This document shows positions 5,949-40,835 of a stretch of DNA of 51,902 bases, piece by piece (position 1 is the stretch's first letter; every line of letters begins with the position of its first letter). Source of the DNA: a virus. A model generated the notes under the pieces. It saw only the letters and a program-made list of their open reading frames with translations. It had not been told where the DNA came from and searched no databases. Location: positions 1 through 51,902 of the IMG/VR virus record IMGVR_UViG_3300046692_000176; one strand, given 5' to 3'. A program made the translations under genes and the position numbers.

Positions 5949-5998
5949 TGGTCGGGACGGAGTGATTCGAACACTCGACCCCTAGCACCCCATGCAAG
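5949..5998 (-). other. Attachment core (attP): 3' part of a tRNA-Pro(GGG) gene
   Basis: Read on the minus strand, the segment is CTTGC-ATGGGGT-GC(T)AG, then GGGGTC, a perfect T-arm (GAGTG TTCGAAT CACTC), the acceptor strand CGTCCCG and ACCA. The 7-base anticodon loop gives anticodon GGG (Pro). The D-arm half of the tRNA is absent, so this is not a tRNA gene but an att core that restores the tRNA on integration. One anticodon-stem base (T instead of the A needed to pair) differs from a functional stem. It lies next to int and between two arm-type repeats, and phage genes continue beyond both. Host-target identity is from memory of the Pseudomonas tRNA. Confidence 0.82.
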
Positions 5999-6088
5999 CG
6001 GACTGGCCTACAGCCCGCATAACATAAGGCTCTCTGGCTTGGCGCTCGCTGCAACGATGCCTAACCGCGTTTTACCGTAATTCACTAT

Positions 6089-7781: not shown

Positions 7782-7805
7782 TCTGTGACTGGATGGCGGC
7801 GTCCA
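7778..7805 (-). promoter_or_regulatory. Late-type promoter motif H (endolysin)
   Basis: On the minus strand TGGACG, 16 bases ending CAGTCACA, then GAGCCT. It matches the nine-copy motif family with a weaker -35 and -10. It precedes the endolysin gene by 37 bp. Confidence 0.5.
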
Positions 7806-7869
7806 GTGTTATGCGGTTAATCTCGCAAGCCATGGTCACCGACTCATACCGATAATCTGGAATCATGAA

Positions 7870-13652: not shown

Positions 13653-13680
13653 AGCGTATGTGACTGGATATAACGAACAA
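13653..13680 (-). promoter_or_regulatory. Late-type promoter motif D (fibre operon)
   Basis: On the minus strand TTGTTC, a 16-base spacer ending ATCCAGTCACA, then TACGCT. It lies 25 bp upstream of the first fibre-operon gene and matches eight other copies in the window. Confidence 0.65.
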
Positions 13681-13710
13681 GAGTGGACTGATATAAACGG
13701 AAACAGACTG

Positions 13711-14442: not shown

Positions 14443-14830
14443 GACCTATCAGTGCAATACGCCCTCGGCGAAGGCGTATTACGCTGTTTTCAGCCCTTGC
14501 CGGACCGAGCCCTGACGCGCCACAGCGCACCTAGCCCTGCCACTCCTCAAAGTGCTTTCGCACCGCAATGCACCCTCAGTGAAGGCGCATTACGCTGTTG
14601 TCAGCCCCAAACATGCCGGACCGAAGCCAGCCTGGCCTTGCCCAATCACGGCACACCATATGGCGCTTTCGCACCGCACTGAGTTCTCGGTGGAAAACCC
14701 AGTACGCTGTTTTCAGCCCACATCAAGCCTAATCCTACCTCGCCTCGCCAGGGCCGACCGCAACATACCATGGCTCACCGCAATGCTTTCGCACCGCACA
14801 GCGCACCCACTGGATGCGCTCTACGCTGAT
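14443..14830 (-). repeat. Array of four structured repeats, probable minus-strand RNA
   Basis: No gene is seen here. Four units spaced 111, 111 and 120 bp apart each have, on the minus strand, up to three hairpins in order. H1 is GCTG-loop-CAGC (14706-14717, 14594-14605, 14483-14494; degenerate in unit 4). H2 has a long variable stem (14800-14820, 14678-14703, 14567-14591, 14456-14480). H3 is GGTGC-GAAA-GCnnn (14782-14795, 14662-14675, 14552-14563; absent in unit 1). H2 stems differ in sequence but stay paired: AATACGCC/GGCGTATT, AATGCGCC/GGTGCATT, ACTGGGTT/AACTCAGT, and AGCGCATCC/GGGTGCGCT. Imperfect positions in H2 and H3 are G.T pairs on the minus strand but A.C mismatches on the plus strand. 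Conserved blocks are separated by mostly unrelated stretches of about 55-65 bp. Confidence 0.75.
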
Positions 14831-15285
14831 TAATGCAATGCCTTAGTCATGCCTTTGAGAGCCGAGAATCTGGCCAGCGTGTCAAGGTTGGCTCGACGCT
14901 GGTCATCGTTCAGCTCAGTTATTCTGAGGTTCCTCAGCTTGCTGCCGGTATTGAGAAAGACCTTCTTCACGTTCCGGTCGAACTCCTCTACAGCCAAACC
15001 GGTTTGCTCATGCGGAGGAACCCAACGATAGCCCTTACCTCTTACCGACTGAAGGCAAACCTGATGCGATTTGAGCAACTCACCTTTGAACGCTTCGACA
15101 TTCGCCAGCCACTCAAACTGACGTTCGCGAAACTGATCTGACGTCATGGTTTTGGTTTCGGATAACGATGGCATGCCGAAGTGCTCTTCTAGCCAGGAAT
15201 GACTCACTATATCGCCATAGGCGAACTGCTTGAGGAAATCCTCAACAGCCTGCATGTGGAGCGGATGTTTTTTTAACTCAGACAT
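14830..15285 (-). CDS. Winged-helix-like partner of the RAMP-like protein
   Basis: The 151-residue protein starts MSELKKHPLHMQAVEDFLKQ after GAGGTGG and overlaps the upstream gene by eight bases. It has a helix-turn-helix-like N-terminal part (FAYGDIVSHSWLEEHFGMP) and a central HQVCLQSVRGKGYRWVPP that reads like the wing of a winged helix. A charged C-terminal helix follows (NDDQRRANLDTLARFSALKG). It looks like a phage protein of unknown role paired with the RAMP-like gene, and it lies directly upstream of the repeat array on the same strand. DNA or RNA binding is inferred. Confidence 0.6.
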   Translation of the reverse strand: MSELKKHPLHMQAVEDFLKQFAYGDIVSHSWLEEHFGMPSLSETKTMTSDQFRERQFEWLANVEAFKGELLKSHQVCLQSVRGKGYRWVPPHEQTGLAVEEFDRNVKKVFLNTGSKLRNLRITELNDDQRRANLDTLARFSALKGMTKALH

Positions 15286-15853
15286 ATGCCACCTCAAATC
15301 GCCCAAAGCGCGGGCGGTACTCGCACACGCCAATCAGCTTGCCCGCATCAGTGATAGCTTTTTTCGCTTCCTCGACGTCTAGTACATCGGAGTTTATGGC
15401 GACTTCAAGCTCGGCCGCCCAGTCGAGAAAGATCGGACGATAGCGCATGATCTTAGCCTGTCCAACCTTGACGCCTCGGCAATCTACGAAACGCTGGTCG
15501 TCCCACAAACCATCTGGTGTTGCTGGTCCATCGAACAGCAGGCTGGCCTTATCGGTCATCACCACCGCCCCGCGCTTCCAGTGCGTGCCGAGCTTTTGCA
15601 GCTTGGCCCCGGCAAGGAAAGTTGCGTCGAAGTTAGCGCCAGGCACAAAGATTCCTACCTTATCGTCGTAGTAGGCACCGGCTAGGAATTCAGATCGAGC
15701 AATCGCCAGGTGATCGTCATCGGTTTTTTTGCGCTTGGCAGTCAACTCTTTATGAGCTTTAGTAGCCGGGTTCAATGGGTTCGCCAGCTTGTCGGTATGC
15801 ATCATCAATGGAGAGGTTCCGGTGATGCGAAGGGTGAGGATTTCCATGCTCAT
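15278..15853 (-). CDS. Cas7/RAMP-like phage protein
   Basis: The 191-residue protein starts EILTLRITGTSPLMMHTDKL, like the first beta strand of RAMP-fold proteins. The middle is VGIFVPGANFDATFLAGAKL. Near residues 136-140 it reads MRYRP, and at 175-188 GVCEYRPRFGRFEV, a Gly/Arg-rich loop before the last strand. Phage proteins of this type have been likened to Cas7/Cas5 RNA-binding subunits; I make the link from the motif layout, not a search. The gene overlaps the antirepressor stop (ATGA) and the next gene. It lies outside any CRISPR locus and 450 bp upstream of a structured repeat array. Confidence 0.6.
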   Translation of the reverse strand: MSMEILTLRITGTSPLMMHTDKLANPLNPATKAHKELTAKRKKTDDDHLAIARSEFLAGAYYDDKVGIFVPGANFDATFLAGAKLQKLGTHWKRGAVVMTDKASLLFDGPATPDGLWDDQRFVDCRGVKVGQAKIMRYRPIFLDWAAELEVAINSDVLDVEEAKKAITDAGKLIGVCEYRPRFGRFEVAYV

Positions 15854-16770
15854 GCTGCATCCTCCAGGTCGACCGAGTAGCGAGTTGGTTGCTGCATGGC
15901 CACGCCGAGCCCAGTCAAGAACGAGTTAAGCTCATGAAGCCGATTACGGAGACTGCGCACTTCAAACCATGCACCCTCAATGTCGTAGCCATTGTCGCGC
16001 AGTTCGCAGAGGATTTCCTCGCATAGAGAAATATCCTGAGGCCTTGAGCAAAGATCTTGCATGTTTACGTCCAGCCATGCGCGACCATTGCCGCGATCCG
16101 AGAGCATGGCGGGGCGGCGCTTTACTAGTTCTTCCAGTGGGAATTTGATGTTGAGCCGATCAGCCTTCGACTGCACAACTTCCCTTTCGATGAACTCACC
16201 TTCAAGTACGTATGCCGCAACAAAATTGCAGGCATCGGCCAGGCATTCCGCAGGTATGAGCGCAGTGCGCTGGACATTGAAACGGGAGCGGAGCCGGCTT
16301 TTCATGGTGTGCCGAAAGCTACGCTGCATCACGCGAGGCACCGAATAGGCCTTCTGATCAATTACGCGATCAAGGACGACTTCCCCGCTACTGCCAATGA
16401 CGGCTCCGACGAGATCACCGACGATAGTTTCGGGGCTCAAACTCAGGCGATGAGCCATGTCGTTGAATGCAGCGATGTAGCCCTCCTTGATCGATGCTGC
16501 CGACTTACCGGTGAAGCCCATGACCAAAAAAATGAAACCATCCTTGGTCATTTCGAAGGCTTCGTAGGTGTTGCCTCTGTGCTCAAATTGAACCGACGAA
16601 AAGTTGTCGGTTAAAAATTGATCAGAGCATTCGAGCGACCTAACCTTAGCAAGAACATGATTGTGCAGCTTCCCAAAGGCCGTTGCGACCTGATGGGTAG
16701 TGGTGAAAGCGTACCCATCGCGGGCTTCCACGAATTTGCGCATGTCTACCACTGTGTTAGTATTTTGCAT
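15850..16770 (-). CDS. Rha-family antirepressor / regulatory protein
   Basis: The 306-residue protein starts MQNTNTVVDMRKFVEARDGY after AGGA; a longer in-frame form to 16860 overlaps the Arc-like gene and is less likely. The N-terminal domain has the Rha pattern TTTHQVATAFGKLHNHVLAK, then FEMTKDGFIFLVMGFTGKSA and FNDMAHRL. The C-terminal part (from about residue 140) is a separate helical domain. Rha-type proteins act as regulators or antirepressors in temperate phages. Here it is downstream of an Arc-like repressor, as ant is in P22 immI. Confidence 0.8.
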   Translation of the reverse strand: MQNTNTVVDMRKFVEARDGYAFTTTHQVATAFGKLHNHVLAKVRSLECSDQFLTDNFSSVQFEHRGNTYEAFEMTKDGFIFLVMGFTGKSAASIKEGYIAAFNDMAHRLSLSPETIVGDLVGAVIGSSGEVVLDRVIDQKAYSVPRVMQRSFRHTMKSRLRSRFNVQRTALIPAECLADACNFVAAYVLEGEFIEREVVQSKADRLNIKFPLEELVKRRPAMLSDRGNGRAWLDVNMQDLCSRPQDISLCEEILCELRDNGYDIEGAWFEVRSLRNRLHELNSFLTGLGVAMQQPTRYSVDLEDAA

Positions 16771-16837
16771 GACGTTTTTCCTAGATAGATTGACGTTCGC
16801 TTCATGAGCCTCAACCGTTGGCGCGGTTGGGGCTTTT

Positions 16838-16999
16838 TCATGCCTGTTGTTTTTGAGCATCTTCCTGCTCCAGTGACTTCCTTAGCCTGAATACGATCTC
16901 TCCGCTGAGACTTCGCCCATTCTCAAATGCTCGCTGCTCAAGTCGCGCACGCATCTCAGCAAGAAGCCTTACCGCTGTACTGATTTTTTTGGCCTTCAT
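16838..16999 (-). CDS. Arc/Mnt-like ribbon-helix-helix repressor
   Basis: The 53-residue protein starts MKAKKISTAVRLLAEMRARL and continues EQRAFENGRSLSGEIVFRLR, with a short charged tail. This is the size and layout of P22 Arc: one N-terminal beta strand, then helix, turn and helix with the N-G-R-S-x-(S/N)-x-E-I pattern. Arc-type dimers repress their own and the ant promoter. It precedes the Rha gene, and a TATAAA-type -10 (minus strand, 17032-17037) with TTTACA 15 bp upstream could be the shared promoter. Confidence 0.8.
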   Translation of the reverse strand: MKAKKISTAVRLLAEMRARLEQRAFENGRSLSGEIVFRLRKSLEQEDAQKQQA

Positions 17000-17015
17000 G
17001 GCTTGCACTCTATGT

Positions 17016-17118
17016 GTTTACATTTGAGCACTTTATACGCCCATGTTTCCTTTGTAAACGTGAATGTTTCCTTTTTTGTACATTAACGCACATCAGTGTA
17101 GATTTGGTGCGTTTAATG
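17016..17118. promoter_or_regulatory. Divergent promoter/operator region of the immI-like cassette
   Basis: This AT-rich gap separates the Arc-like gene (minus) from the HTH repressor (plus). It contains the inverted pair GTTTACA (17016-17022) and TGTAAAC (17053-17059), two TGTTTCC repeats, and a longer inverted repeat CATTAACGCAC (17081-17091) / GTGCGTTTAATG (17107-17118). The minus-strand promoter elements TTTACA (17053-17058) and TATAAA (17032-17037) overlap the first pair. The second inverted repeat sits just upstream of the plus-strand repressor and may be its own operator. Confidence 0.55.
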
Positions 17119-17133
17119 CACCTTGGAGCAAGC

Positions 17134-17568
17134 ATGAGTACGACTTTTGGGAAGCGCTTGGCCATGGCCAGAGCGAAGAAAAACCTGACTCAGAGGCAGC
17201 TTGGCGAGATGGCGAACGTTACCTGGTCGCAGATTTCGAAATACGAAGCCGGCAAAGCAAAGCCAAGGCTGGCCGTACTATTGAGTCTTGCGGCAATCCT
17301 AGAGGTTGAGGCTGACTATCTGTCGGGCGACAGTAGCGATGAGCAGGGCCGTGAGATCACGTTAATGCTAACCGCTAGCGAGACTGAGGCTATCGAAGAG
17401 CTAGCGGCGAAAGAGGGGATTTCGTTCGATCAGGCCGTTAACCAAATGATCGCAGCAGGCATGAAAGACCGGATCGAGAAAAGCCCAGATCTGATGGCTC
17501 AGCTGGAGGCGGAAATTCCAGGCGGCTATGCCAAGCTGCTTGAGTTGCTTGGAAAGAAGACAGATTAA
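17134..17568 (+). CDS. Xre-family HTH repressor with RHH-like C-terminus
   Basis: The 144-residue protein starts MSTTFGKRLAMARAKKNLTQ and has a complete HTH_3 domain (RQLGEMANVTWSQISKYEAG, then KPRLAVLLSLAAILEVEADY, residues about 5-66). The C-terminal part carries MLTASETEAIEELAAKEGIS and then FDQAVNQMIAAG, which resembles a ribbon-helix-helix. It is divergent from the Arc-like and Rha genes, so it probably plays the Mnt part of P22 immI, repressing the antirepressor in the lysogen. GGAG precedes the start at 17134. It has no peptidase domain. Confidence 0.8.
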   Translation: MSTTFGKRLAMARAKKNLTQRQLGEMANVTWSQISKYEAGKAKPRLAVLLSLAAILEVEADYLSGDSSDEQGREITLMLTASETEAIEELAAKEGISFDQAVNQMIAAGMKDRIEKSPDLMAQLEAEIPGGYAKLLELLGKKTD

Positions 17569-20171: not shown

Positions 20172-21905
20172 TCATTTCCTGTACTGCTTGCCGTCGGGGC
20201 CAATGAAGACGCTGCCCGCCGGCAGAGCGTCCGCCTGTGCTTTGGACGTGACGGTTGGGAAGGTTACTGGCGCGGCCACGGGCAGGTTGCCTCCGGCGGC
20301 GGCCTGGCCTGTAGAGGGTGCCGAACTTTTGCCTGATCGATCTTTTGCGGTCTGGAGTGTCGACCTAACTTCACTCAGAGATTTACGAAATGCCCCCTCG
20401 CTCATCTTCGTTGAGAGCGCACCTACCGAATCAGACAGTTTCTTTCCTTCTGCATCAGAAAGAGCGCCCGTACCACGAAGTGCGGCTATTTGCGGCAGGA
20501 ATGTTTGGGCCTTTAATGTATCAAGCCGCGCCTGAAAGTCTGCGGCATCCCCGCCAGGCAGCGTCGGCGTAAGCGCGTCGAACCTGCCAAGTGATTTTGC
20601 CAGGCCCGGGTCTTCGTCCAGCCTTTTGCCTGTCGGGTTCTTCGGGTCTACCTGCCTGCCGAGCAACGAGTCAATCGAGCTAAGTGCCTGATCAAAGGTA
20701 GCAACCTGACCCTCCTGCCCTTTAATCCTGTCCTGACTCGCCTGCTGCTGAGCCTGTGCTTTCTGCGTGAGATCCTGCTGCTTAAGTTGCCCGTCCAACT
20801 GGGTATTCGTTAGTTGCGCCTGAGCTTGTTGCCGCGCGAATGCATTCTTTCCAGTAGGATCGAGGACTCGCTGCGCTGCGGCCTGCTGTTCCGGAGTTGC
20901 GCCAGGCGCCTGACCTGCCGAAAGAATGTCTTCCAGTCGGGCATTGCGCTGCAGGACCTGCTCTGTGCCGCGACTCTGCTGGCGCCCAATAACTGCGCTT
21001 TGGGCTGATGTGATGTTGTCCCGTAGACCCTGTGCCGCCGCTTGGTTCTGCTGGTCACGGTAAACGTCCGCTCGCGTGATGGGTCGGCTGCTGTCCCTCA
21101 CGATGGTTGTGTTGTTCGCCCGCGTATTGGCCGCGAGCGCGTTGTCCAGACGATCCTGATCCCGATACGCCTGACGCAGGTCGCTTGCCTTTTGAAAGCG
21201 CGACATGGCCAGAGCCGAGTCACCGGTTTGGGCTTGGCTGAAAGTGCCAATACCATCGCCCAGATTCGATGCCGAGCCCAATGAGCCCAGCGAAGCCTGC
21301 GGGTCTGGAGATCGACCGGAGCCGGGTGATAGCTGAGAGAGGGAATTCGGGAGCTGTGCAGCAATCGCTGTCGGTTGGCGCCCGGCCGCCGAGGCTAGAT
21401 CTGCTGACTGATTGGAGAATTCAGGGACTCCCCCGACTGCGGTTCGAGTGACAATGGCATTGCTACCGGTGCCGATCCCGGTAGGACGGAATGCGTTTTC
21501 CAAACTGGCAGGAGCCTGGGCACCACTGGGCTGAGTCGCGGAAGGTTGATTGACGACTGGCGCTGTCACGGCATTGGCAGATGGCGGCGTAACCACTGGC
21601 GACAACGATGCAAGGCTCGCCGGTTGAGTCGCGGCGGGGCTGGTTCCAGTTGAGGTAGCTGCACTGGCCGTGGCTTGACCTGGTGACAGAGAGGCAAGCC
21701 CGACTGGCTGCGCTGGCGGGACAGACGCTGTCGGCTGAGCGGCAACTACGGGCGCCAGAGATGCCAGACCAGTCGCCGCAGGAAGCTGGCTTGATGCTCG
21801 AGCAATAGGCCCGCCCGTAATGGATTGCACGCCATTTTTAGCGGCTCGCTCGGCGTTGGTCATATACGCCTGCGCCAGATCTCCGGCGAGATCGCTGATT
21901 GCCAT
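20172..21905 (-). CDS. Internal virion / ejection protein, low complexity
   Basis: The 577-residue protein starts MAISDLAGDLAQAYMTNAER eight bases after GGAG. The N-terminal third is low-complexity Pro/Ala/Ser/Thr with a repeated 'LASL(A/S)P(V/G)' motif (LASLAPVVA, LASLSPGQA, LASLSPVVT). The middle is a long Gln/Ala-rich coiled coil. The C-terminal part has SIDSLLGRQVDPKNPTGKRL. It fits an internal protein ejected with the genome; the repeats may mediate assembly with the neighbouring protein that shares 'ATGLASL'. It is preceded by promoter motif E. Confidence 0.65.
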   Translation of the reverse strand: MAISDLAGDLAQAYMTNAERAAKNGVQSITGGPIARASSQLPAATGLASLAPVVAAQPTASVPPAQPVGLASLSPGQATASAATSTGTSPAATQPASLASLSPVVTPPSANAVTAPVVNQPSATQPSGAQAPASLENAFRPTGIGTGSNAIVTRTAVGGVPEFSNQSADLASAAGRQPTAIAAQLPNSLSQLSPGSGRSPDPQASLGSLGSASNLGDGIGTFSQAQTGDSALAMSRFQKASDLRQAYRDQDRLDNALAANTRANNTTIVRDSSRPITRADVYRDQQNQAAAQGLRDNITSAQSAVIGRQQSRGTEQVLQRNARLEDILSAGQAPGATPEQQAAAQRVLDPTGKNAFARQQAQAQLTNTQLDGQLKQQDLTQKAQAQQQASQDRIKGQEGQVATFDQALSSIDSLLGRQVDPKNPTGKRLDEDPGLAKSLGRFDALTPTLPGGDAADFQARLDTLKAQTFLPQIAALRGTGALSDAEGKKLSDSVGALSTKMSEGAFRKSLSEVRSTLQTAKDRSGKSSAPSTGQAAAGGNLPVAAPVTFPTVTSKAQADALPAGSVFIGPDGKQYRK

Positions 21906-21938
21906 TGTTGTCACTCCCGCAGGTATGCTGATACCCGC

Positions 21939-21966
21939 AGGCTATGTGACTGTACCGCTCAATCAA
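21939..21966 (-). promoter_or_regulatory. Late-type promoter motif E
   Basis: On the minus strand TTGATT, a 16-base spacer ending ACAGTCACA, then TAGCCT. It lies 34 bp upstream of the internal-protein gene starting at 21905. It shares 17 consecutive bases (CAGTCACATAGCCTGCG) with the copy before the large terminase. Confidence 0.65.
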
Positions 21967-22958
21967 GCAGCTACCTCGGCTTCGACAATGTTCGCCCAGA
22001 ACGCCGGCGGTGGCAGTGCTATTCGCGAGGCGAAGGCCGCTGGGCCTGCGAATTGGGTGTTTTCGCCAAGCACTGCGTCCATGATCATGCGGACGTCGGA
22101 AGTACCACTGAACCCCGAACTGGTCAGGGTCTCGGTAATCAGCCTGTAGTTCCCCAGATCGTCGTAGCCCTGTGAAGAGCTATGGGTAGGATCAGCATCG
22201 CCGGTTATATAATCCAGGGATCCGACACCATCAGCTGCAGCCAGCGCAGCAACAGATGCCAAAGGGATGAGCACACTTGGTACCTGCACATTCCTCTTGT
22301 TGGTCCAGGTACTGCCAACCTTGCGGATCAGGTATAGCGTGCTGGTTGAGGTCTGGTTGTCATCCAGAACAAACATGGATTCGCCCGCATCAGAACGGAT
22401 GAATTGTCCAGACGAGTTTGCGGCAAACCCGCTGGGCATGGTCAGTGTCGACTTCAAGTAGCCGCTGGATTTCAGCTCATAGAGAGCGAATGGGATGACC
22501 CCGCTGGGGGCGTCGGTCTGGGCTGGATCAAGACCAAAAAAGTAGGCCTCTTCCTGTCCGCCGGCGGCGAAGTTCAGCACGGGGGCACCACCCAGCCACG
22601 AGGGTGCATCCATCTGGACGTGGCTGGAAGCGATGGTGCGGGATACGCCAGCGGGCGATACAGCCGTCAGCAGCAGGTCTTGCATGAAGTTGAGCGCGCC
22701 GCCTGACTGTACCAGGCCGATGGCAAAGATCAGCTCGTCTGTGGCGCTGATGCCTATCAGCTTGAAAAGCTCTGAGTTCGACTGGTAGCTGCTGCCGTAA
22801 GCGGTCTGAGCAGTTAGCTGGAGAGGAGCAATTACGTCAGATATCGACTGCTGAGGGTAATCCATTACCCTCCCAACCTCTGCAGTAAGAGGCTCGATCA
22901 CGAGGGTCTTCAGCAGGCCTGTCTCGGTCTGGCATGGGATTGTCAGGTAGGTTCTCAC
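21963..22958 (-). CDS. Hypothetical virion protein
   Basis: The 331-residue protein starts with GTG at 22958, overlapping the upstream stop (GTGA), and begins MRTYLTIPCQTETGLLKTLV. It is beta-rich, with a DDNQTSTSTLYLIRKVGSTW segment and several SSG/YDDLGNY turns. No family is recognised. It is the second of two large coupled genes in the structural operon and is probably a virion component. Confidence 0.6.
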   Translation of the reverse strand: MRTYLTIPCQTETGLLKTLVIEPLTAEVGRVMDYPQQSISDVIAPLQLTAQTAYGSSYQSNSELFKLIGISATDELIFAIGLVQSGGALNFMQDLLLTAVSPAGVSRTIASSHVQMDAPSWLGGAPVLNFAAGGQEEAYFFGLDPAQTDAPSGVIPFALYELKSSGYLKSTLTMPSGFAANSSGQFIRSDAGESMFVLDDNQTSTSTLYLIRKVGSTWTNKRNVQVPSVLIPLASVAALAAADGVGSLDYITGDADPTHSSSQGYDDLGNYRLITETLTSSGFSGTSDVRMIMDAVLGENTQFAGPAAFASRIALPPPAFWANIVEAEVAA

Positions 22959-31839: not shown

Positions 31840-31867
31840 AACTTATGTGACTGGATTGCTTCGTCAA
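31840..31867 (-). promoter_or_regulatory. Late-type promoter motif C (capsid)
   Basis: On the minus strand TTGACG, a 16-base spacer ending ATCCAGTCACA, then TAAGTT. It begins at the stop codon of the scaffold gene and gives the capsid gene its own promoter with a leader of about 200 bases. The leader holds no other recognised feature. Confidence 0.68.
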
Positions 31868-32830
31868 CTAGACAACATCGCCAGCTAGCGCGGCCTCATC
31901 CTCGGCGGACAGGCTCTTTAGCTCCTTACCGGTCATCTTCGACACGTCCAGGCTAGAGGCGCGCGCTCCGACGCCCGCTGGCTTGCCAGGCACCTTGGCG
32001 GCACGATCCAAACCTTTCTGAATATCAGGCTTAACCGGGTCAGGCGTCTTGGCTGCAGGCTCAGCCTTGGTTGCGGCATAACGAGGCCCGATTTTTGCGG
32101 CAGCCAGTTCCAACGCCTCGGCTGGGCTCTTGCCCTTGGCGACAAAGTGCTGGTGCCATACCAGCGTTTCGTCGATGGCATCCTGATTCTTGTCGTCGCT
32201 GTCCACGCTGAGGAAAGGATACGCGGCATAGGCCTTGCTCAACGCGAGCTCGAATTCAAGCTTGGCGCGCTTCGCGTCATCCGTGGCTTTGTTGGCTTGA
32301 TAGCGGCGGTCCGCGACCTGCTCAGCCTCGGCAATGGCGGCCTTGCGTTCCTCCGCGCGGATCTCGGCTCGAATCTGCTTTGCTTTGGTGCTGTCGCCGT
32401 CCAGGAATGCTGCTTGATAGCGATCTTCGGCGTCGTCGAAGTCGTATTGTGCTGGCGGTTCTTCCTTCTTCGGTGCGGCAGCCGGGGCCGAGCCCTTGGC
32501 ACGAGCAAGCTCCTCTTCCAGTTCAAGGACGCGCGCACGGTGCAGCTTGGCCTCTTCGTTGACCTCGTTGAAACGGGCGTGCGGGATCATCTTCGGCTTA
32601 TCGTCGCCGGCGATAGATGCCAAGGTGTCGGCGCTGTACTGTGGCTGGTCGTTGTCCAACTCACCGCCGCCCGGCGCGGACTGGTCATCAGGCTTTACTG
32701 ACTGCTGTGCTACGGCGCCATCAGGGTCATCCTGCGGCGGCACGTAGTCTTCCCCGCTCAGCGCGGCCTCTTCGGCCAGTCGAGCGTTGATGTCTTCCTG
32801 CGATTCTTGTACTGCTTCAGCTTTGCTCAT
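31868..32830 (-). CDS. Scaffold protein
   Basis: The 320-residue, highly charged protein starts MSKAEAVQESQEDINARLAE. It is disordered or coiled throughout (RARVLELEEELARAKGSAPA, KKEEPPAQYDFDDAEDRYQA, RAEIRAEERKAAIAEAEQVA) and has a basic C-terminus (SLDVSKMTGKELKSLSAEDE). The amino-acid composition and position between portal and capsid fit an internal scaffold. No protease gene is seen, so scaffold recycling as in P22 is possible. Confidence 0.82.
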   Translation of the reverse strand: MSKAEAVQESQEDINARLAEEAALSGEDYVPPQDDPDGAVAQQSVKPDDQSAPGGGELDNDQPQYSADTLASIAGDDKPKMIPHARFNEVNEEAKLHRARVLELEEELARAKGSAPAAAPKKEEPPAQYDFDDAEDRYQAAFLDGDSTKAKQIRAEIRAEERKAAIAEAEQVADRRYQANKATDDAKRAKLEFELALSKAYAAYPFLSVDSDDKNQDAIDETLVWHQHFVAKGKSPAEALELAAAKIGPRYAATKAEPAAKTPDPVKPDIQKGLDRAAKVPGKPAGVGARASSLDVSKMTGKELKSLSAEDEAALAGDVV

Positions 32831-36761: not shown

Positions 36762-36789
36762 AGGCTATGTGACTGGATTTGTCGTGCAA
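36762..36789 (-). promoter_or_regulatory. Late-type promoter motif B (large terminase)
   Basis: On the minus strand TTGCAC, a 16-base spacer ending ATCCAGTCACA, then TAGCCT. It lies 24 bp upstream of the large terminase start. Confidence 0.7.
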
Positions 36790-36795
36790 CAGGCG

Positions 36796-37129: not shown

Positions 37130-37157
37130 AGGCTATGTGACTCAACCCGATTTGCAA
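37130..37157 (-). promoter_or_regulatory. Late-type promoter motif F
   Basis: On the minus strand TTGCAA, a 16-base spacer ending TGAGTCACA, then TAGCCT. It lies 23 bp upstream of the HNH-like gene. The central TCACATAGCCT block is conserved while the preceding bases differ. Confidence 0.65.
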
Positions 37158-37164
37158 CAGGCAT

Positions 37165-37561: not shown

Positions 37562-37589
37562 AGGATTTGTGACTGATCTGGTATTGCAA
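37562..37589 (-). promoter_or_regulatory. Late-type promoter motif G
   Basis: On the minus strand TTGCAA, a 16-base spacer ending ATCAGTCACA, then AATCCT. It is 52 bp upstream of the secreted-protein gene; the -10 end is the most divergent of the set. Confidence 0.55.
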
Positions 37590-37598
37590 GCGGCTATA

Positions 37599-40804: not shown

Positions 40805-40832
40805 AGCCTATGTGACTGGATTCTTTGGGCAA
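40805..40832 (-). promoter_or_regulatory. Late-type promoter motif A (holin-candidate operon)
   Basis: On the minus strand TTGCCC, a 16-base spacer ending ATCCAGTCACA, then TAGGCT. Its -35 hexamer is three bases from the -35 hexamer of the divergent motif I on the plus strand. It is likely to drive the operon from the holin candidate to the small terminase. Confidence 0.7.
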
Positions 40833-40835
40833 GGC

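Follow-up and report, generated by a model that had tools for sequence, protein, structure and literature searches.

A likely type II VIPR locus in a Pseudomonas phage, with predicted targets in sibling phages

Identification of the locus

The phage DNA studied here (IMG/VR record IMGVR_UViG_3300046692_000176; the window is the whole stretch analysed, 51,902 nucleotides) almost certainly carries a VIPR locus of type II and of the Pseudomonas (P. fulva-like) kind, in which vipr, the accessory gene vap1 and three vrRNAs lie together on the minus strand and would serve in competition with close relatives. VIPR (Viral Interference Programmable Repeat) is a phage-borne, RNA-guided system related to CRISPR and described in a 2026 preprint (PMC13142463). 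According to its main text, the Vipr protein acts with vrRNAs composed of 9-16 GGY/NN repeats plus a structured tail, the NN letters bind double-stranded DNA with one base skipped, and transcription is repressed; predicted targets are competing phages, mostly lysogeny regulators for the Pseudomonas clade, while expression, Vipr binding and target repression were shown for Escherichia phage SUSP1. The VIPR kind of system is known already; added here are natural targets, an apparently unread tail-proximal repeat and a conserved junction cap.

The original prediction, made from the window's letters, was of a structured RNA array with differing inserts, confined to 14443-14830 on the minus strand and not recognised as a known element. 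As far as sequence can tell, the reading as a minus-strand RNA array was right, and the stems covary. The element is nevertheless of a known kind, a VIPR vrRNA array (PMC13142463), though absent from Rfam (no real match to the array at gathering or relaxed thresholds), and it extends into two protein genes, 14830-15853.

Array layout and guide repeats

The array occupies 14443-14830 between two genes, and both the sequence and a repeat search returned the four predicted blocks, spaced 111-120 bases apart. Read along the minus strand, its parts are:

14781..14828, minus strand: 5' leader block, with junction stem and third hairpin (GGTGCGAAAGCAT), no GCTG arm; begins at the vap1 stop codon
14720..14779, minus strand: vrRNA1 guide tract, 12 GNY-NN repeats; NN = GA AT AT GC CG CT GA GA AG TA TT GT, with GC before
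14662..14719, minus strand: vrRNA1 tail hairpin GGCTG-AAAA-CAGC, junction stem and third hairpin, supported by covariation
14608..14657, minus strand: vrRNA2 guide tract, 10 repeats; NN = GT GT TG AA CA TG TC CC AT TG, with AT before
14551..14607, minus strand: vrRNA2 tail hairpin, junction stem and third hairpin, supported by covariation
14497..14546, minus strand: vrRNA3 guide tract, 10 repeats; NN = GT AG TA GC GT GC AG TC CC AA, with GA before
14454..14496, minus strand: vrRNA3 tail hairpin and junction stem, third hairpin lost, as judged from the sequence

Three hairpins had been expected in every unit, which does not hold at either end. The unit nearest the protein genes (14828-14781) begins at the vap1 stop codon and so has no GCTG arm, and in the last unit (14496-14454) the GGTGC-GAAA-GC hairpin is missing.

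The stretches between the blocks, 50-60 bases long, had been taken as mostly unrelated, but they are built of a five-base repeat of the form GGYNN (G-G-pyrimidine-N-N). The GNY pattern is in phase in 31 of the 32 repeats of the window, while dinucleotide shuffles gave a mean of 11.5 and a maximum of 19 (n = 5000). Because these inserts are in phase at period 5, they, and not the hairpins, are the ordered, information-carrying part of the array. Their 12, 10 and 10 repeats fall within the range of 9-16 GGY/NN repeats given for VIPR, with the strict GG present in only 21/32; in the main text of PMC13142463, GGY is kept in all vrRNAs inspected.

The drifted second G could mean that the locus is a decayed VIPR that no longer works and whose guides have lost their targets. 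The missing target of vrRNA2 and the missing third hairpin of the last unit would fit such decay, as does the retention of GG in just 21 of the 32 repeats, but we consider it quite improbable: the first G and the pyrimidine are kept jointly in 31 repeats, vipr and vap1 are both intact, and vrRNA1 still matches its predicted target at 12 of 12 NN, repeats with an altered second G included. Moreover, position 2 is G in only ~80% of repeats across 111 tracts decoded from fetched loci of relatives (repeat count mode 11), so that this drift is usual for the clade.

Structure of tails and junction stems

A structured 3' tail follows the guide tract in the window and its relatives. In an alignment of 46 tails, 95.5% of cells are paired, and the covariation score of 0.512 compares with 0.176 for shuffled and at most 0.135 for slid controls. 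The original prediction had named homologous loci with unpreserved stems as what would speak against it; the stems of these 46 related tails are preserved, with covariation far above both kinds of control.

The variable middle stem, here called the junction stem, is present in all four blocks, and it stays paired and covaries as predicted; its length, however, is 13 bp rather than 8-9 bp, counting the flanking G-C, U.G and CUUC/GAGG pairs, with compensatory changes in 12 of the 13 pairs. Its cap, CUUC-NNN-GAGG, is almost invariant. The prediction had also argued for a minus-strand RNA from imperfect pairs that are G.U on that strand and A.C on the other, and the U.G pair at columns 25-34, found in 45 of 46 sequences, bears this out. 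The vrRNAs of SUSP1 are flanked by the same capped hairpins (CTTCTAAGAGG with a further 15 bp, plus others), which are absent from some more distant loci.

Tandem hairpins in an intergenic gap are also what DNA-level repeats such as REP/BIME elements, attC-like sites or replication iterons would present, with no guide RNA role. Strand-specific U.G pairs in 45/46 tails, compensatory changes in 12/13 junction-stem pairs, in-phase guide repeats and an orientation that is fixed relative to vipr argue against this, and we give it next to no weight.

A further idea, that the junction stems were diversified inside arrays against recombination, was not supported (permutation p = 0.54), the mean distance within an array being smaller than that between arrays. 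At the array ends of four related loci (L017, L022, L025 and L015) the last vrRNA closes with GGGCCGTAAACGGC, a tail hairpin with changed pairs, after which an apparent intrinsic-terminator hairpin replaces the junction stem.

Protein genes at and around the array

The genes that matter here are:

14830..15333, minus strand: accessory gene vap1 (phrog_5926), adjoining the array
15278..15853, minus strand: vipr (phrog_4652), 191 aa, RAMP/Cas7-like guide-RNA-binding protein
15850..16860, minus strand: Rha-family regulator (PF09669, E=3.2e-20), upstream of vipr on the same strand
17014..17568, plus strand: the phage's own HTH repressor-like gene (PF01381, E=7.5e-13), divergent from the Rha gene
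20172..21914, minus strand: the phage's own phrog_2534 allele, of the gene targeted by vrRNA3 in siblings, with a diverged site (15/22)

A profile of the 191-aa Vipr matches one PDB entry, 36pp "SUSP1 Vipr protein" (E=2.6e-57). Its AlphaFold2 model (pLDDT 82) is likened by Foldseek to Csm3 and type VII Cas7, with probability up to 1.00, and the protein is a small single-domain RAMP homolog. In hhalign the vap1 product matches that of the gene that follows vipr in SUSP1, with probability 98.4% (E=7e-15). The vap1 start likely lies at the ATG at 15285, giving 151 aa. Its AlphaFold2 model has pLDDT 72, and the fold search gave weak, uninformative winged-helix-like matches, so that DNA binding by Vap1 is predicted, not established by the model. 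The Rha gene and vipr probably form one operon.

The Vipr match to 36pp and the vap1 match to the SUSP1 accessory gene therefore mark this as a type II-like VIPR locus; the placement in type II, one of seven types in the Vipr phylogeny, would rest on vap1 homology together with the form of the array, and membership of the P. fulva clade on host and array form.

Related loci

Phage Medea1 has two units at the same place, and two pattern scans of IMG/VR led to 35 further contigs. In all but a few array-bearing contigs, phrog_4652 and phrog_5926 genes lie beside the array, before or after it; vap1 (151-167 aa) is a conserved partner in related loci. Approached from the other side, 75 of 79 viral loci chosen by vipr alone have a GG period-5 run beside vipr on the same strand, and three of the four without this signal end close to vipr.

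Two further loci depart from this arrangement: (i) P. aeruginosa phage vB_Pae_CF28b has vrRNA-like units (L003:2349-2544) with no recognisable vipr in the 5 kb examined, possibly an orphan array. (ii) Another contig encodes a distant Vipr-like protein (L013:1824-2537; ~24% identity, 237 aa), and no units of this form were found on it.

The guide code

The one-base skip rule was examined on those 105 of the 111 tracts that have nine or more repeats, each scored against the fetched DNA. With up to 2 mismatches allowed, best targets numbered 18 when one base was skipped, compared with one for skip 0, none for skip 2, none for shuffled NN and two for the reversed order. The 18 include three guides of the window, and window patterns had been used to fetch their target loci; in addition, some guide-target pairs are related by descent, so the excess is clear while the count is not one of independent cases. 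Of the window's own guides, vrRNA1 decodes under this rule at 12/12 NN and vrRNA2 to no target. No clear relation was seen between the pyrimidine or the second repeat base and the skipped target base.

The NN adjacent to the tail behaves differently from the others. In 82 of 111 tracts it reads AT or AA. Across good guide-target pairs, which are few and partly related, 18 of its 38 letters are mismatched, compared with 16 of 368 in the rest of the guide, and it probably serves as an anchor instead of being read.

Conserved structured blocks that alternate with variable stretches, next door to a RAMP-type protein, might suggest a CRISPR or TIGR-like array of contiguous spacers. However, the variable stretches are themselves period-5 repeats, contiguous (skip 0) reading of the NN gives no target excess, and the genes examined between 13023 and 20175 have no Pfam match to a Cas family; we regard such an array as extremely improbable. 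The period-5 tracts, the skip test and synteny led us to reject the CRISPR/TIGR and iteron readings alike, in favor of a VIPR array.

Some guides of relatives decode to other genes. Those of L028 (6244) and, at three mismatches, L033 (3145) point to the vipr gene of siblings (TKAHKELT), i.e. VIPR aimed at VIPR. For related guides of L041, L042, L043 and L079 the decoded target is VDKWELYRI(A/S)Q, encoded by a large gene of siblings (ORF of 1287 aa in L009).

Predicted targets of the three vrRNAs

The 20-base gapped pattern of vrRNA1 was found in exactly one IMG/VR contig, L118. There, each base skipped by the 12 matching NN is a third codon base within an Arc-type repressor gene (Pfam Arc E=1.2e-8), and two of the NNs lay outside the searched pattern. 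Some 85,000 genomes of bacteria and archaea contained no match to the same pattern, and the reversed-order pattern had none in IMG/VR. In L118 the Arc gene and a Rha gene are divergently oriented, and the place of the Arc gene is taken in the window by the HTH repressor.

For vrRNA3 the pattern was relaxed to allow the differences of a related guide in L011, and it then matched L166 and L167 at the first codons of one gene (MAVGDLIGDLATAYLTP). Nine consecutive dinucleotides match in both; mismatches are in the first NN and the tail-proximal NN. The best match among 400 Pseudomonas genomes (L156) belongs to the same gene family, so that two separate searches converge, although matches in those genomes were no more numerous than for the reversed control and only L156 was later backed, via L166 and L167. 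PHROGs describes the family (phrog_2534) as "released from the phage upon host infection", making this an ejection-protein gene. The phage's own copy agrees at 15/22 of the site.

No credible target was found for vrRNA2, with two weak matches in the 400 Pseudomonas genomes and none in 44 records, nearly all of them related phages. Its 18-base matches in L119-L121 do not extend and are probably due to chance.

Target matches at vrRNA guide length rest on one or a few contigs, and the array could be a true VIPR whose real targets lie elsewhere, those of vrRNA1 and vrRNA3 reflecting chance or shared protein motifs. Arc-type helices share NAEIIARLEES, so many Arc genes score 20-22, and vrRNA3 required the relaxed pattern. 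We nonetheless judge this explanation unlikely: the matches fall in sibling phages with shared virion genes, the skipped bases are codon wobble bases, the reversed control produced no match, and the two vrRNA1 NNs beyond the searched pattern match as well. The three sibling contigs (L118, L166 and L167) have neighbouring virion genes in common with the window, most of them at 50-96% identity. None of these three records, which may be fragments, yielded a vipr gene.

Comparison with known systems

SUSP1 (type II) carries one of the closest known systems, with similarities in protein and RNA alike: its Vipr has ~42% identity over 98% of the protein, a vap1 homolog occurs in the same gene order, GGYNN guide tracts with structured tails are found in its DNA, and CUUC-NNN-GAGG capped hairpins flank the vrRNAs in both. 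It differs in having one upstream and three downstream vrRNAs, whereas the three of the window are all downstream. According to the main text of PMC13142463, the SUSP1 tails bear a pseudoknot and its predicted targets are satellites; the window has a plain GCTG/CAGC hairpin, junction stem and third hairpin, and its predicted targets are sibling phages. With the P. fulva prophage VIPR clade the window shares the Pseudomonas prophage setting and also predicted targets of the sort given for that clade in the same source, lysogeny-switch regulators of other Pseudomonas prophages.

The class 1 CRISPR effectors (Csm3/Cas7; types III and VII) resemble Vipr in their RAMP fold and, presumably, in holding a guide RNA along a protein filament. 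Such systems have direct repeats, contiguous spacers and several cas genes; the VIPR locus, in contrast, has no spacer array and a five-base period with gapped instead of contiguous pairing, and no other cas genes were seen among the genes examined around it.

A model for the locus

The model proposed here starts from what was observed, i.e. the genes, the repeat phase, the RNA structure and the decoded targets. One minus-strand transcript, after processing, would supply vipr, vap1 and the three vrRNAs. Each vrRNA would run from 10-12 GNY-NN repeats into the GCTG/CAGC tail hairpin, with the junction stem and third hairpin separating one vrRNA from the next and the junction stem perhaps marking their ends. 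By homology with the experiments described in the main text of PMC13142463, Vipr subunits would cover the repeats and expose the NN dinucleotides for pairing with double-stranded DNA, one base being skipped each time, and the complex would block transcription of the matched gene; binding and repression in the window phage itself are thus proposed by analogy. On this model vrRNA1 would strike a sibling's Arc-type repressor opposite Rha, upsetting the rival's control of lysogeny, and vrRNA3 would strike the start of the gene for the siblings' ejected virion protein, limiting the rival's virion production. The phage's own phrog_2534 allele, being diverged, would escape vrRNA3. The net role would be competition with close relatives.

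More tentatively, and at a little under an even chance, we propose three things together for type II VIPR: that the CUUC-NNN-GAGG hairpin, whose cap is conserved between Pseudomonas phages and SUSP1 although the remaining stem varies freely, is a mark of vrRNA ends at which processing or the loading of Vipr takes place; that the AT/AA tail-proximal repeat is an unread anchor; and that guides are kept specific to the alleles of rivals, so that the allele of the phage itself escapes. The cap mark, the unread anchor and own-allele escape do not appear in the main text of PMC13142463, and may already be known to its authors.

The skip-one excess lends the VIPR guide code independent support in a separate set of ~100 loci. 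The natural targets named here by prediction are the lysogeny repressor of one rival and the ejected virion protein of others, in both cases siblings with virion genes in common with this phage. With them, the notion that VIPR serves as a weapon among close relatives can be put to a direct test in a defined pair of phages, and the predictions on RNA ends and guide reading are concrete ones for a system known only since 2026.

Other features of the window

A motif, (C/G)TTG ... ATCCAGTCACATA, is repeated along the minus strand, in at least some cases in the gaps ahead of genes, at 7782-7806, 13657-13681, 21943-21967, 31844-31868, 36766-36790, 37134-37158, 37566-37590 and 40809-40833. With at most one mismatch, CAGTCACATA has 9 matches where 1.8 are expected. 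The recurring motif resembles a late promoter or operator specific to the phage. A tRNA-Pro(GGG) gene lies at 5949-6017 on the minus strand.
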